Below, one piece after another: positions 9,763 to 20,261 of a DNA stretch of 32,440 bases. This DNA is from Candidatus Methylomirabilota bacterium (lineage in GTDB: Bacteria > Methylomirabilota > Methylomirabilia > Rokubacteriales > CSP1-6): contig DASYVT010000212.1 in NCBI GenBank assembly GCA_035936835.1, forward strand, positions 1-32,440, in the 5' to 3' direction. The translations under genes were made by a program, and so were the position numbers. Below the pieces are notes generated by a model. That model was not told where the DNA came from. It searched no databases and saw nothing but the letters and a program-made list of their open reading frames with translations. Positions within the stretch are counted from its first letter, which is position 1. Each line of letters starts with the position of its first letter.

Positions 9763-10206
9763 CTAGGCGCGCGAGGGAAGGACGGCGGTCGCCTTGCCGG
9801 TGATGACCTTCTCGCCCTTCTGGTTCTCGGCCCAGAGCTCGAGGTCGACCAGATAGGGGCCGTCGCCGTCCTTGGGCGGACGCTTCGCGACGACCTTGCC
9901 GCGGCAGGTGACGACGTCACCCAGGCGCACCAGCGCGGCGAAGCGAACGCCGACCTTCCTCACGCTGCCGACGCCGAGCCAGTCGGTCACCGACTGCGCG
10001 ACGAAGCCCATGGACAGCATGCCGTGGGCGAAGACGTCGCCCATGCCGGCCGCCTTCGCGAACGCGGCGTCCTGGTGGATGGGGTTGAAGTCGCCCGAGG
10101 CGCCGGCGTAGCGCGTCAGCTGGATCTGCTGGATGGGCGGCTTCACCAGCGGGGGCATCTCGCTCCCGACCTGGACTTCGTCCGCGTAGACCTTGGCGTA
10201 TTTCAC
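9763..10206 (-). CDS. MaoC-like dehydratase, C-terminal-type subunit
   Basis: 147 residues from GTG 10206, 2 nt after the stop of the preceding gene. The hydratase motif YAGASGDFNPIHQD (Asp and His of the catalytic pair) is intact, followed by FAHGMLSMGFVAQ, typical of R-specific enoyl-CoA hydratases. Together with the gene before it (MaoC N-terminal type) it probably forms a heteromeric hydratase, as in the mycobacterial HadAB or ChsH1-ChsH2 pairs; the catalytic residues sit in this subunit. Last gene of a three-gene hot-dog operon, ending 16 nt from the end of the cassette patch. Confidence 0.9.
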   Translation of the reverse strand: MKYAKVYADEVQVGSEMPPLVKPPIQQIQLTRYAGASGDFNPIHQDAAFAKAAGMGDVFAHGMLSMGFVAQSVTDWLGVGSVRKVGVRFAALVRLGDVVTCRGKVVAKRPPKDGDGPYLVDLELWAENQKGEKVITGKATAVLPSRA

Positions 10207-10208
10207 GA

Positions 10209-10664
10209 TTAAAGCCTGACCACGGTGATCTGGCGCATGACGGTGACGATGTCGTTGTCGGAGTCCGTCACCGTGATCTCGCGGACGACGAAGGCCATGG
10301 GGCCGGACTTGCCCGCCTTCTCGTAGATGTCCGTTATGCGCCCGCGGCATAGATACGTCCGGCCGGGCCGGATGGGCTGGAAGTGCTCGAACTCCTGCTC
10401 GCCGTGGAGGATCCGTCCAATGTCCACGCCGAGATCGCGCAGGAGAACGCCCGTGTCTGACCGCTCGTCGCGGAAGGTGATGGGGAAGGTGGGCGGCGCG
10501 ATGATGTCGCCCCACGGCCCCGCCTTGGCGACCTCGTCGTCAAGATAGAAGGGCGAGAGGTCGCCGATCGCGCGGGCGAATTCCTTGATCTTGCCGCGCT
10601 CCACCGTGACGGGATAGGGCGGGTACTCCTTGCCCTTGACGGCCGTGTTGATCTGGATCGCCAT
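10209..10664 (-). CDS. MaoC N-terminal-type (FAS1-like) dehydratase subunit
   Basis: 151 residues starting at ATG 10664, which overlaps the thioesterase stop by 1 nt (TGATG). The sequence EFARAIGDLSPFYLDDEVAK followed by IIAPPTFPITFR is the MaoC_dehydrat_N pattern; the hydratase Asp-His dyad of the motif GDxNPIHxD is replaced by GDLSPFYLD, so this subunit probably lacks catalysis and completes the substrate pocket of the partner encoded next. HGEQEFEHFQPIRPG is the usual central strand. Function follows from the pair, not from this chain alone. Confidence 0.9.
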   Translation of the reverse strand: MAIQINTAVKGKEYPPYPVTVERGKIKEFARAIGDLSPFYLDDEVAKAGPWGDIIAPPTFPITFRDERSDTGVLLRDLGVDIGRILHGEQEFEHFQPIRPGRTYLCRGRITDIYEKAGKSGPMAFVVREITVTDSDNDIVTVMRQITVVRL

Positions 10665-11059
10665 CAGGCCTTGCCTTTGCTCATGGCGCGGGCGAGGAAT
10701 TTCTCGAGGTTGGGCACGATGAAGCGCTCGTGACGGCCCTCGGCGATCTTCTCCACCTCGTCGAAGACGTCCACCTGGAAGAGGCACCGCTTGCCGTCGG
10801 TCTCGACGAGCGTAGCCGTGGCCCGTACCTTCATGCCGAGCGGTGTCGCCGCCAGGTGCTTCATCTCCACCGTGGTGCCGACGGTGCCGGCGCCCGGGGG
10901 CAGGTGGGAGACGATGGCCGCCTGGGCGGCGGTCTCCATGAGGCAGATGACGAAGGGCGTGGCGTAGACGTGAACGCCCTTGTTGCCGAGGGCGTCGGCG
11001 GTCAGATCCTGCGTGACGACCTGCTCCACTTCCGCGGTCAGCCCGACCTGGATGGCCAT
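10664..11059 (-). CDS. FlK-like hot-dog thioesterase
   Basis: A 131-residue thioesterase of the fluoroacetyl-CoA thioesterase (FlK) group. The catalytic triad known from FlK (Thr42, Glu50, His76) matches here with a constant offset of 8: Thr34 in VYATP, Glu42 in LMETAA and His68 in VEMKHLA. The family hydrolyses small acyl-CoAs; the specific fluoroacetate lid cannot be judged and most homologs have no tie to fluoroacetate. Short upstream AGAGGG on the minus strand supports ATG 11059. It leads the three-gene hot-dog operon, so the set may remove or reshape an acyl-CoA made by the neighbouring catabolic genes. Confidence 0.88.
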   Translation of the reverse strand: MAIQVGLTAEVEQVVTQDLTADALGNKGVHVYATPFVICLMETAAQAAIVSHLPPGAGTVGTTVEMKHLAATPLGMKVRATATLVETDGKRCLFQVDVFDEVEKIAEGRHERFIVPNLEKFLARAMSKGKA

Positions 11060-13063: not shown

Positions 13064-14650
13064 ATGCGCATCGTGGACCCGATCGGCACCAGCGCCGCCG
13101 CCGCCAAGGCCTTGGCGCCCCGGCCGCGCTCGCTCGAGGGCGTGACCATCGCGCTGCTCGACAATTCCAAGCCGAATGCCGGCGTCCTGCTCGAGCGCGT
13201 GGGCGCGCTTCTGGCGGCCCGCGTCGGCGCCCGCGCGGTGCGGGCATGGAGCAAGCCCGGCGCCTCGACGGGCGCCGCGCCGGCCGTCATCGAGGAGATC
13301 GCCGCCGTCGCGCGCGTCGCGCTGACCGCCTCGGCCGACTGAGGCTCCTGTACGTCGTGGAGTGTCCACGACGCCGCGGAGCTGGAGGCGAGGGGAGTCG
13401 CCTGCGTGGTACTGGGAACCGACGAGTTCATTCCGCTGGCGCGTGCCCAGGTCGCCGCCCAGGGCCTGCCCGGGCTTCCCATCGTCACCGTGCCTCATCC
13501 GATCGGTGGCATCCCGGCGGCGAGCGCGGCCGCGAAGGCTGGGCCGATCGTCGATAGCGTGCTGCGCGCGCTCACATCCGACCCTGCCGCGGCTGTACAC
13601 GCGGCGAGCGCGGCTGTGGGCGACCTCGAGGCGCCCGACGATCTCGACCGCTTCCAGGCATGGCTGATGGAGCGGGGCTGGGGCGACGGCCTGCCCGCCA
13701 TCCCGCCCACGCGCGAGCGCGTCGCGGCGATGCTCGCGGGCACTCGCAGGAGGCCCGACGAGGTGGTGGCCCTGCTCGTGCCGAGGCTTGGCAGGGCGAC
13801 AGTCAAGGCCATAGCCGCCAACGCGGTGATGGCGGGGGCCCTTCCCGAGCACCTGCCCGTGGTGCTGGCAGCCGTCGAGGCCGTGGCGGACCCATCCTTT
13901 AACCTCCAGGCCGTGCAGACGACGACCCACCCCTGCTCGCCGCTCTGCATCGTCAACGGGCCGATCGCGGGGCGTCTCGGCATGAACGCCGGGGGCAATG
14001 TCTTCGGGCAGGGGACGCGCGCCAACGCCGCCATCGGACGGGCGCTGAGGCTGACGCTCCAGAACGTGGGCGGGGCGCGACCCGGCAAGGAGGACCGCGC
14101 CACCCACGGCCAGCCCGGCAAGTACGCCTACTGCATTGCCGAGAACGAGGCCGCGTCGCCCTGGGAACCGCTCTCCGTCGAGCGGGGTTTCTCCTCCGGG
14201 GAGAGCACGGTGACCGTCTGCGGGTCGGAGGGCCCGCACAATATCAACGACCACGGCTCGACCACGCCCGAGGGTATCGTGACGACCGTCGCTGGGACGG
14301 CGGCGATCGCCGGCTCCAACAACATCTACCTGGGCGGCGAGCCGCTGATCGTCCTCGGGCCCGAGCACGCTGCGACCGTCGCGTCCTCGGGCTGGAGCAA
14401 GGAGGACTTCAAGCGCGCGGTGTGGGACAGGGCCCGCGTGCCGCTCGCGCGCTTGTCGCCCGAGAACATCGAGCGCTTCGCGACGATCGACCCGGAGGGC
14501 TTCAAGGACAGGCCGCCCGAGACGCATGTGCCCATCGCGCGTGACTGGCGGGATATCATGGTCATCGTGGCGGGCGGCGCGGGCAAGCACTCGTTGTTCA
14601 TCCCGACCTTCGGCAGCACGCGGTCGGTCACCCGACGCATCGCAGACTGA
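13064..14650 (+). CDS. UGSC family selenoprotein fused to its partner domain (in-frame TGA = Sec)
   Basis: 528 residues if TGA 13340-13342 is read as selenocysteine (Sec93); ordinary annotation would split it into a 92-residue stub and a 414-residue protein. The frame is unbroken across the TGA and both sides match the separate pair at 17676-19261. Residues 1-190 are the UGSC domain: LEGVTIALLDNSKPN, then ASAD-Sec-GSC (Sec93/Cys96, a UxxC redox pair), then VSVxHPIG-like PHPIGG. Residues about 197-528 are the partner domain: ERGWGDGLPAIPPT, IAANAVMAGALPEH, IVNGPIAGRLGMNAG, HGQPGKYAYCIAENEA. Shine-Dalgarno GAGAGGTGA supports ATG 13064. Directly after the TGA is a SECIS-type hairpin. I recall a family named for the UGSC motif; biochemical role is not known to me. 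A redox or reductase role is inferred from UxxC. Confidence 0.9.
13353..13373 (+). promoter_or_regulatory. bacterial SECIS hairpin of selenoprotein 1
   Basis: CGTCGTGGA and TCCACGACG form a perfect 9-bp stem around a GTG loop, 10 nt after the TGA. The loop starts 19 nt after the TGA and begins with G, within the known bacterial range for SelB binding. It is coding at the same time. Confidence 0.8.
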
Positions 14651-17675: not shown

Positions 17676-18725
17676 ATGACGACCCAACTCGCCTCCAAGC
17701 GCTATGCCGTCGAGGACCTGAACCACGCCATCGAGTTCTGCTACCAGCAGGGCTGGACCGACGGCCTTCCCGTCGTGCCCCCGACTGAGCGCGCCGTTCG
17801 CGCCATGCTGGACGCGGCCGGCCTCGAGCCCGACAAGCAGGTCGCCTTCATCACCAACCGCCAGGTCGCCGTCACCGCCGAGAAGGTCGCGGTCAACGCC
17901 GTCATGGCAGGATGCCTTTCGGAGTACATGCCCATCGTCGTGGCGGCCGTCGAAGCGCTCGCCGAGCCGAAGTGGGGGTATCACGGCCCCGCCACGTCCA
18001 CGGGCGGCGCCGCCGTCCTCATGATCGTCAACGGGCCCATCGCCGCGCGGCTCAGCTTCAACTCGGGCGACAACCTCTTCGGACCCGGCTGGCGGGCCAA
18101 CGCCACGACGGGCCGCGCGGTCCGCCTGGTGATGCGCAACGTCATCGGTACGCTGCCGGGTGCGCTCGACCGGGGGACGGTGGGGCATCCGGGCAAGTAC
18201 AGCTACGTCATCGCCGAGAACGAGGCCGACAGCCCGTGGACGCCGTTCCACGTCGAGCGCGGCTTCAAGGCGGAGCAGAGCGTGGTGACCGTCATGGCGG
18301 CGGAGGGGCCGCACCAGTTCTACAACCAGCTCTCGAGCACGGCCACGGGCGTGCTGGCCTCGCTCTGCGACGACATGAAGCATCACGCCAGCACCAATGG
18401 CCAGCCGCAGTACGTCGTCGTGCTTGCGGGCGAGCACATGCGCACCATCGCCAGGGACGGCTGGTCGAAGGCCGACATCCAGAAGTTCGTCTTCGAGAAC
18501 ACGCAGAACTCGCTGGCGCACATCAAGCGAGTGGGGCGGCTGGCGGGGGCCGTGACCCCCGAAGACGAGACCACGATGCGGCCGATCGTGCCGAGCCCGG
18601 AGGACGTGCACGTGATCGCGGCGGGCGGCCGGGCGGGGGCGTTCTCCTGCTATATCCCCGCGTGGGCCGGCGGCAAGAAATCGAGCCAGAGCGTCTCGAA
18701 ACTCATCCAGGACAGGAGGGCATGA
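17676..18725 (+). CDS. UGSC partner protein (stand-alone version of the fused domain)
   Basis: 349 residues homologous over its length to residues 197-528 of the fused selenoprotein: QQGWTDGLPVVPPTERAV, VAVNAVMAGCLSEYMPIVV, IVNGPIAARLSFNSG, GHPGKYSYVIAENEADSP, VERGFKAEQSVVTV and a C-terminal VIAAGGRAGAFSCYIP. No transmembrane segments or signal peptide. I do not recognise an enzyme family; the strongly conserved GWxDGLPxxPPT and NGPIA motifs suggest a catalytic or cofactor site. The leaderless ATG 17676 is chosen because the TATAAT lies 7 nt before it. The stop overlaps the start of the second selenoprotein gene by 1 to 4 nt, so the two products are made in step and very probably act together. 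Confidence 0.88.
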   Translation: MTTQLASKRYAVEDLNHAIEFCYQQGWTDGLPVVPPTERAVRAMLDAAGLEPDKQVAFITNRQVAVTAEKVAVNAVMAGCLSEYMPIVVAAVEALAEPKWGYHGPATSTGGAAVLMIVNGPIAARLSFNSGDNLFGPGWRANATTGRAVRLVMRNVIGTLPGALDRGTVGHPGKYSYVIAENEADSPWTPFHVERGFKAEQSVVTVMAAEGPHQFYNQLSSTATGVLASLCDDMKHHASTNGQPQYVVVLAGEHMRTIARDGWSKADIQKFVFENTQNSLAHIKRVGRLAGAVTPEDETTMRPIVPSPEDVHVIAAGGRAGAFSCYIPAWAGGKKSSQSVSKLIQDRRA

Positions 18726-19261
18726 TGGCAGGCTTCGAAATCCTCGACCCGACGGTCGAGCCGCGGAAGCAGGCGATAATGTACGTGCCGAGGCCCGACT
18801 CGCTCAAGGGCAAGCGGATCGGCCTCGTCGAGAACACCAAGTTCAACTCCGACAAGCTGCTGACGAAGGTCGGCGAGATCCTCAAGAAGGAGTACGGCGC
18901 CGCCGAGTACAAGATGTGGCGCAAGCACAACTCGAGCGTCCCGGCGCACGACGAGATCATCGACGAGGCGAAGCGCGGCGTCGACTGCGTCGTCGCCGGC
19001 GTCGGCGACTGAGGGTCCTGCTCGTCGGGCAGTGTGCTCGACGGAATCCTGTTCGAGAAGGCCGGCATCCCCGCCGCGTCCATCGTGACCGACGTCTTCG
19101 AGGGCACGGGCCATGCGATGGCCCAGTCCTGGGGTCTGCCGGACTACAAGTTCCTCTCGCTGCCGCACCCGATCGCCAACCTCAGCGAGGCCCAGTTGGA
19201 CCAGCGGGCGCGCGAGATCGCCCCGGAGATCGTCAAGCTGCTCCTCCAGGGCCAAGAGTAA
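18725..19261 (+). CDS. UGSC family selenoprotein, stand-alone (in-frame TGA = Sec)
   Basis: 178 residues when TGA 19010-19012 is read as selenocysteine (Sec96, with Cys99 making UxxC). Read as a stop it would leave 95 residues and an orphan 75-residue tail. Before Sec: DSLKGKRIGLVENTKFNSDK and CVVAGVGD; after it: SVLDGILFEKAGIPAAS and FLSLPHPIANLSEAQLD, all aligning with the UGSC domain of the fused protein. ATG 18725 is preferred over ATG 18722 because AGGAGG (18714-18719) is then 5 nt away. A SECIS-type hairpin follows the TGA at the same spacing as in the first gene. The short pattern U-G-S-C followed by E-K-x-G-I-P recalls U-G-T-C in glycine/proline reductase subunits (GrdB, PrdB), a possible distant relation only. 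Confidence 0.9.
19023..19043 (+). promoter_or_regulatory. bacterial SECIS hairpin of selenoprotein 2
   Basis: CGTCGGGCA and TGCTCGACG form a 9-bp stem (one G-U pair) around a GTG loop, 10 nt after the TGA, the same geometry as the first hairpin. Stem position 8 is C-G here and G-C there, and position 6 is G-U versus U-A, so pairing is kept while the bases change. Confidence 0.8.
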
Positions 19262-19283: not shown

Positions 19284-20261
19284 GTGAGCATCGGCCCCGA
19301 CTACCGCCCGCCCTGGTGGTATCGGGGCCGCCATCTCCAGACGCTCTGGGGCCCGCTCCTCAGGCGCGGCCGGCAGCCCGCGCTCCGCCGCGAGCGGGTG
19401 GAAACGCCCGACGGTGATTTTCTCGACCTCGACTGGCTGGAGGGGCGCGACCGCGGCGTCCCGCTGGTTGTCATCCTCCACGGTCTCGAAGGGTCTTCTC
19501 GCTCGCATTACGCCTCCGGGCTGCTGCGCGAGCTGGAGCAGGTCGGCTGGCGGGGCGTCGTCGTCAACTTCCGCGGGTGCAGCGGCGAGGTCAACCGCTC
19601 CCGTCGCATGTACCACTCGGGGGAGACGGAAGACCTCGACTTCGTGTTCGGCCGCCTGACCGCGCGCGAGCCCAATCTGCGCCTCGGGCTCGTGGGTGTG
19701 TCGCTCGGCGGCAACGTCGCGCTCAAGTGGCTCGCCGAGCGGGGCGACCAGGCCCCGGCGCAGGTGGCGGGGGCCGTGGCCATCTCAACGCCCTTCAACC
19801 TGGCCGCCTGCGCCGCCGCGCTCGACCGCGGGCTCAACAGGGCGCTGTACACGGTGAACTTCCTCTCGACCATGACGATCAAGCTCGACAAGAAGGCGGC
19901 GCTCTACGAGGGCGTGATCAACCTGCCGGCGGCGCGGAAGGCGAAGACCTTCGCCCAGTACGACCGGCTCGTGACGGCGCCGCTCGGCGGTTTCGCCAGC
20001 GAGCGCGACTACTGGGCGCGCTCGAGCAGCGGCCCGCTGCTGCCCCAGATCCGCCGGCCGACCCTCTTGATCAACGCGCTCAACGACCCGTTCATACCGG
20101 CCTCGGCGCTGCCGCGCGCCCTCATCGCCAAGTCGCGCTGGCTCGAGGCCAACTTCGTGCCCGAGGGCGGGCACGCGGGCTTCCTCGAGGGCCGATCGGG
20201 CGCTCGCTCGTGGGCCGAGGCTCGCGCCGTCGGGTTCCTCGAGCGCCACCTGCTAGGATGA
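19284..20261 (+). CDS. YheT-like alpha/beta hydrolase
   Basis: 325 residues from GTG 19284 (AGGAG 8 nt before). N-terminal YRPPWWYRGRHLQTLWGPLL is the YheT/ABHD1-3 signature. The nucleophile elbow GVSLGGNVALKW contains the catalytic Ser, with the oxyanion segment HGLEGSSRSHY before it, Asp in NALNDPFIP and His in EGGHAGF near the end. Members hydrolyse short-chain esters or lipids. No signal peptide. It begins 22 nt after the selenoprotein stop and its own stop overlaps the next gene (ATGA), so it belongs to the selenoprotein operon. A link between ester cleavage and the UGSC proteins is possible but unproven. Confidence 0.92.
   Translation: MSIGPDYRPPWWYRGRHLQTLWGPLLRRGRQPALRRERVETPDGDFLDLDWLEGRDRGVPLVVILHGLEGSSRSHYASGLLRELEQVGWRGVVVNFRGCSGEVNRSRRMYHSGETEDLDFVFGRLTAREPNLRLGLVGVSLGGNVALKWLAERGDQAPAQVAGAVAISTPFNLAACAAALDRGLNRALYTVNFLSTMTIKLDKKAALYEGVINLPAARKAKTFAQYDRLVTAPLGGFASERDYWARSSSGPLLPQIRRPTLLINALNDPFIPASALPRALIAKSRWLEANFVPEGGHAGFLEGRSGARSWAEARAVGFLERHLLG

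Follow-up and report, generated by a model that had tools for sequence, protein, structure and literature searches.

A selenocysteine-coding UGSC protein and its partner subunit: a candidate two-subunit enzyme with a domain related to GrdB

The described systems closest to the locus studied here are the UGSC selenoprotein family itself and the selenocysteine (Sec)-dependent reductases of the glycine reductase (Grd) and D-proline reductase (Prd) type. GrdB of C. sticklandii carries Sec at residue 350 of 436 (PMC3091704). The fluoroacetate reductase FarB/FarE is a GrdB-type system for which C-F cleavage has been proposed, and its operon also encodes an MFS transporter (PMC10838667). UGSC proteins are listed in a 2026 review among selenoprotein families with largely uncharacterized functions. 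A 2008 study reports a domain fusion of UGSC with 'Unknown_1', possibly the partner described below, and suggests a thioredoxin-like fold for UGSC (PMC2398784). The phrase 'UGSC family' was not found in the searched literature.

The split pair and the fusion in the window

The window, by which we mean the whole stretch of DNA analyzed (32,440 nucleotides, 68% GC), lies on contig C212 of the 4.12-Mb genome of a soil bacterium whose nearest named matches are Rokubacteria. It encodes UGSC and its partner once as two overlapping genes and once as a single chain, within the following features:

9763..11059, minus strand: MaoC hydratase, FAS1-DH hydratase and FlK-type thioesterase, divergent; also beside the cluster in genome G001 and in some of L026-L029
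11869..13056, plus strand: MFS transporter, 7 bp upstream of the fusion; order repeated in G001
13064..14650, plus strand: UGSC-partner fusion gene, single frame; AF2 model pLDDT 93.7, pTM 0.92
Fusion domains, plus strand: UGSC at aa 1-171 and partner at aa ~190-528, by alignment to the split pair and PF24696
17676..18725, plus strand: partner subunit gene, 349 aa; AF2 model pLDDT 95.1
18722/18725..19261, plus strand: UGSC selenoprotein subunit gene, PF24696 E 1e-59; start overlaps the partner stop
19284..20261, plus strand: alpha/beta hydrolase, immediately 3' of the split pair; adjacent in five loci

A first-pass annotation had claimed that the pair (17676-18725 plus 18725-19261) encodes the same two domains as the single chain at 13064-14650, in the opposite order. 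Both statements were confirmed by alignment. The split partner shared 43% identity with fusion residues 190-528 (E 1e-77) and the split UGSC 33% with the fusion N terminus (E 7e-25), the partner coming first in the pair and UGSC first in the fusion. The overlapping start codon that had been noted was also found: at the junction (AGGAGGGC ATGATG GC), the UGSC ATG at 18722 or 18725 overlaps the TGA stop of the partner gene. The frame of the fusion (13064-14650) closes with a TGA stop.

Phylogenetically, the split pair falls in a partner>UGSC lineage whose orthologues are spread through the family, and the window fusion is a member of a Rokubacterial fused clade. An origin of both from one gene that was recently split or joined was ruled out by the tree, which places them as deep paralogues. 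Because G001 keeps the cluster order (with insertions: MaoC/FAS1-DH/thioesterase, MFS, fusion, partner, UGSC and alpha/beta hydrolase), and because 16 genomes, among the matches listed in the phylum survey, carry two UGSC genes no more than ~12 kb apart on one contig, we infer that pair and fusion are linked paralogues that probably form one catabolic module.

Elsewhere in the window, the segment 23670-28731 contains one unassigned gene, a gene for the large subunit of a PnpCD-like hydroquinone dioxygenase and then a full TRAP transporter (DctP, DctQ and DctM). The segment 2969-5248 encodes a 759-aa chain made of two acyl-CoA dehydrogenase units.

Selenocysteine coding and kinship with GrdB

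Both UGSC domains match PF24696 well above its cut-off of 25 bits (split UGSC, 201.7 bits; fusion, 165.3 bits, E 2e-48). The NCBIfam model NF041046, with a cut-off of 125, gave 144.2 bits for the split UGSC and 124.6 for the fusion, just below that value. The elements that bear on Sec decoding are as follows:

13340..13342, plus strand: Sec codon TGA of the fusion, residue 93, the only internal TGA
13356..13370, plus strand: SECIS-like hairpin core of the fusion, z -2.75
19010-19012, plus strand: Sec codon TGA of the split UGSC, codon 96, the sole in-frame TGA
19026..19040, plus strand: SECIS-like hairpin core of the split UGSC, nt 17-31 from the UGA, loop AGUGU

Sec decoding at the UGSC TGA is well supported, since a single in-frame TGA coincides with a conserved hairpin, selB and tRNA-Sec. 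Exactly one in-frame TGA was present in each Rokubacterial UGSC match among those listed in the phylum survey. In a local trial alignment (row set A5), all 42 UGSC rows line up at Sec93. The genome carries a tRNA-Sec gene and a SelB scoring 373.5 bits against a cut-off of 242. As judged from our own alignment of 109 UGSC sequences, 97-99% preserve the hairpin stem, and compensatory exchanges of the types C-G/G-C and U-A/G-U occur; a hairpin 17-31 nt past the UGA, with the loop AGUnU, is common to about 110 UGSC genes. This covariation lies in coding sequence and is therefore supportive of an RNA structure rather than proof of one. An Rfam scan of the window gave no match at E<=1. The UGSC of Natrialba is a Cys form (CGSC), and no SelB above the cut-off was found in that genome.

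We compared the Sec region with that of GrdB. UGSC residues 77-176 aligned with GrdB residues 327-423, Sec on Sec (hhalign 95%, E 2e-8, score 61.5); the Sec 350 of C. sticklandii GrdB falls in this region. The best of 45 decoy families scored 25.2 and reversed GrdB 18.7. With the four motif columns masked, the score was 39.3, which still exceeded all decoys. Judged by these alignments, UGSC is remotely homologous to the Sec-bearing C-terminal domain of GrdB, the B subunit of glycine/betaine/sarcosine reductase. The motif variants UGTS and UGTG seen in GrdB parallel the Ser-ended motifs of UGSC. Scores against glycine reductase subunit-B models were far under the cut-offs (TIGR01917, 14.9 against 602.2 bits), and no PF07355 match was obtained for the window UGSC at E<=1. 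For PrdB, the TIGR04483 score was 11.3 against 300 bits, and hhalign gave 13% (E 0.002). Two other sites in the genome (C148:50628-51056 and C129:17802-18224) match PF07355 over its C-terminal part only and are PrdB-like; no PF09338 (GrdE) match was found there.

The AF2 model of the UGSC domain has five strands in the order of five beta-alpha units, and the domain is thus predicted to be Rossmann-like, not thioredoxin-like. None of the 50 Foldseek matches listed for the fusion was a thioredoxin, and none fell below E 0.001. The first motif residue was U or C in 129 of 129 typical homologues, and the last Cys was replaced by Ser (UGSS) in 3 of the 129, with Sec retained. An invariant U/C next to a variable last Cys fits a nucleophile better than an obligatory UxxC dithiol pair. 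These observations bear on the view that UGSC is a general thiol-redox protein, acting through a UxxC center as a peroxidase or disulfide reductase, and that the partner serves as its substrate or scaffold. The motif itself, the trxA/trxB genes in some operons and the thioredoxin-like fold assumed in the 2008 text (PMC2398784) speak for it, but the Rossmann-like model, the thioredoxin-free match list and the three Sec-retaining UGSS members do not, and 5 to 19 paralogues per genome in many genomes, with transporter and catabolic neighbors, suit substrate specificity better than redox defense. We consider this view unlikely.

Pairing, partners and operon context

The gene-neighborhood survey proposed in the first-pass annotation found the partner with nearly all UGSC genes, in the phylum as in other groups. 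The genome itself has 7 UGSC and 10 partner genes. Since all seven UGSC genes adjoin or carry one of the ten partners, the pairing there is far beyond chance. In a UGSC-first sample of the phylum, the partner lay inside the 1.5-kb flank in 27 of 29 loci; in one exception it was 2.3 kb upstream past an intervening gene, and the other locus was at a contig edge. A second phylum set, spread by score and sharing two loci with the first, gave 22 of 22. Sixteen genomes of other groups gave 28 of 30, a figure conditional on these genomes having been picked for holding a partner. UGSC is present in haloarchaea and in several proteobacterial and actinobacterial lineages, and the pairing was found in bacteria and haloarchaea.

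Three arrangements occur: a partner>UGSC pair, a UGSC>partner pair and a UGSC-partner fusion, all fusions found being UGSC-first. In the partner tree, gene order sits on deep branches, and there were at least two fusion origins. UGSC and partner distances were strongly correlated (Mantel r 0.87 for 136 pairs; none of 999 shuffles exceeded 0.12). The stability of gene order along the tree means that much of the adjacency is inherited rather than independent, as would be expected if two unrelated functions had merely stayed neighbors and the fusion were incidental. This explanation is very improbable, as both orders exist, fusion arose at least twice, paired genes occur in haloarchaea as well as bacteria, and the model of the fusion shows a single packed unit. 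The pTM of 0.92, with domains of ~170 and ~340 residues, would imply defined packing. The earlier proposal that the two domains function together in a complex is supported by the near-constant pairing and by a fusion predicted as a rigid unit; an interface-free model, which had been named as evidence against it, was not what AF2 returned.

The partner had not been recognized at first pass, and this held: it matched no Pfam or NCBIfam family and had no name in the plasmid annotations seen. In PDB sequence searches, UGSC had nothing beyond chance matches and the partner had no match at all, and Foldseek at E<=0.001 found no match to solved structures for the partner or fusion models. Cyanuric acid hydrolase, the top Foldseek match of the partner, was rejected (TM 0.17). 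Against GrdE, hhalign gave 0.1% and a score of 15.5, which is at decoy level, so that a diverged GrdE was rejected, and no pyruvoyl subunit was seen. The score against GrdB (26.5) was also at decoy level. Conserved partner motifs are DGLP, NAVMAGC, NGP, RANxxxGRAxRL and ExE..PW.

For about eight partner genes, no UGSC was found in the vicinity; among them are a Poribacteria clade and three genes in the same genome as the window (L023:9514-10545, L024:9841-10797 and L025:1003-2025, the last adjoining a FAD-dependent DAO-family oxidase gene). The label of orphan was false for Paracoccus versutus, whose UGSC had been dropped as an identical duplicate, and for Sporomusa and Vibrio, whose fusions scored below the threshold. 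The fusions of Sporomusa termitida (L201:6323-8047) and Vibrio europaeus (L204:6401-8086) have MGTS at the motif, making this branch a Sec/Cys-free version at that site, and adjoin aconitase X and DUF126 genes. One could suppose that catalysis rests mainly with the partner, for instance as an organic-acid lyase, hydratase or isomerase, and that UGSC is an accessory or regulatory part in which Sec is dispensable. The partners without nearby UGSC, the Sec/Cys-free fusions beside aconitase X genes and the conservation of partner R147, N155, E181 and W188 in >99% agree with this supposition. It is nonetheless improbable, given that all 129 typical UGSC domains retain U/C and that a Paracoccus plasmid keeps selB and tRNA-Sec by the pair, which would be costly for a dispensable residue.

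On plasmid 2 of Halalkalicoccus jeotgali (L207:5953-8652), two different sister partners flank one UGSC, an arrangement suggesting that a single Sec/Cys subunit may work with both. The UGSC of Arthrobacter ERGS1:01 (L197:8054-8869) has a C-terminal extension with a weak match to a NifU-like domain. Partners from metagenome-assembled genomes titled Bordetella parapertussis (L040, L047 and L079) group with uncultured Betaproteobacteria, and the titles look like misnomers.

Neighbors of UGSC and partner were variable but catabolic. They included SDR and luciferase-like flavin enzymes, TctC/DctP/NMT1 binding proteins, MFS transporters, amidohydrolases, CaiB, acyl-CoA dehydrogenase and MaoC, several of these names being readings of sequence starts rather than database matches; no third gene was constant across the loci. 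The thioredoxin reductase gene trxB, once together with trxA, shares operons with Cys forms in Arthrobacter (trxB-trxA-partner-UGSC), Roseovarius (partner-UGSC-trxB) and Variovorax (trxB-TctC-SDR-partner-UGSC). The transporter next to the pair is of the TRAP type in Roseovarius THAF8 and of the ABC type in Arthrobacter ERGS1:01. Because the other loci scanned had hardly any trxA/trxB relatives, the electron donor outside these operons is unproven. The conjugative plasmid pBEN of Paracoccus versutus (L209, NZ_CP038196.1 1706000-1728500) carries a Sec-form UGSC and its partner, and within about 8 kb also genes for LysR, SDR, DctP, selB, a TrxB-like protein and tRNA-Sec. In pFER4 of P. ferrooxidans (L208), the record splits the UGSC gene at the TGA and an IS5 element abuts a shortened selB.

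A proposed reductase and its relation to known systems

Because the selenium domain is related to glycine reductase, UGSC and partner are probably an overlooked enzyme family that cleaves bonds in organic acids taken up by the cell. We propose, with a probability of about one-half, that they form an obligate two-subunit enzyme: a Sec reductase of GrdB-like type that is linked to thioredoxin and uses a new kind of substrate subunit. The chemistry is drawn by analogy with Grd and Prd (PMC3091704 and PMC10298544), and homology to a domain of GrdB need not mean the same chemistry. UGSC would provide a catalytic selenolate, or Cys in organisms without Sec, on its Rossmann-like domain, and the partner would bind an imported organic acid and activate (polarize) it. 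The selenolate would then attack a substrate carbon and displace the leaving group, giving a Se-C adduct. This selenoether may be resolved by the second Cys of the motif where present, or by another thiol, and the selenol restored by thioredoxin/thioredoxin reductase or an equivalent. Paralogues would differ in substrate, each near its own transporter and catabolic genes, like the grdB/grdE sets.

More tentatively, the family may represent a separate and widespread class of Sec/Cys reductases, in which a new fold replaces the pyruvoyl subunit beside a GrdB-type domain, the 5 to 19 paralogues in many genomes open diverse carboxylic substrates, and plasmids move the set together with Sec-decoding genes. 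The earlier suggestion of an undescribed selenium-dependent enzyme system is supported in substance, although the association was partly known from the 'Unknown_1' fusion of the 2008 study (PMC2398784), possibly with the same domain. The UGSC family and one domain fusion are already known; as far as the searched literature shows, the near-universal partner, GrdB homology and Rossmann-like fold are new, as are the thioredoxin-linked operons and the plasmid Sec module.

With the near-obligate partner, the GrdB kinship and the thioredoxin-linked operons recognized, what was an orphan family can be tested as an enzyme. Roseovarius, Arthrobacter, Variovorax and Natrinema are cultured and have Cys forms, which makes them open to standard genetic work that needs no selenium. 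Should the chemistry prove Grd-like, the Sec-based bond cleavage of anaerobic fermenters would then be shared by many soil and marine lineages.

Protein B of the glycine/betaine/sarcosine reductases (GrdB/GrdH/GrdF with GrdE; FarB/FarE) shares with UGSC a homologous Sec domain and a UG[ST]C-type motif. Both occur as many substrate-specific paralogues next to transporters, and thioredoxin/thioredoxin reductase, the electron route in Grd, is an operon neighbor in some UGSC lineages. UGSC differs in aligning only with the C-terminal ~95 residues of GrdB, in having an unrelated partner in place of a GrdE-like pyruvoyl subunit and in its range, which takes in haloarchaea along with several lineages of proteobacteria and actinobacteria. 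D-Proline reductase (PrdA/PrdB) resembles it in having two subunits, one of them a UxxC Sec subunit, but PrdA is a pyruvoyl protein, and the UGSC partner is unrelated to its homologue GrdE. Finally, the accessible parts of the UGSC family papers of Zhang and Gladyshev give no general partner and no function, whereas the family described here has a near-universal partner, a predicted Rossmann-like fold and kinship with GrdB.
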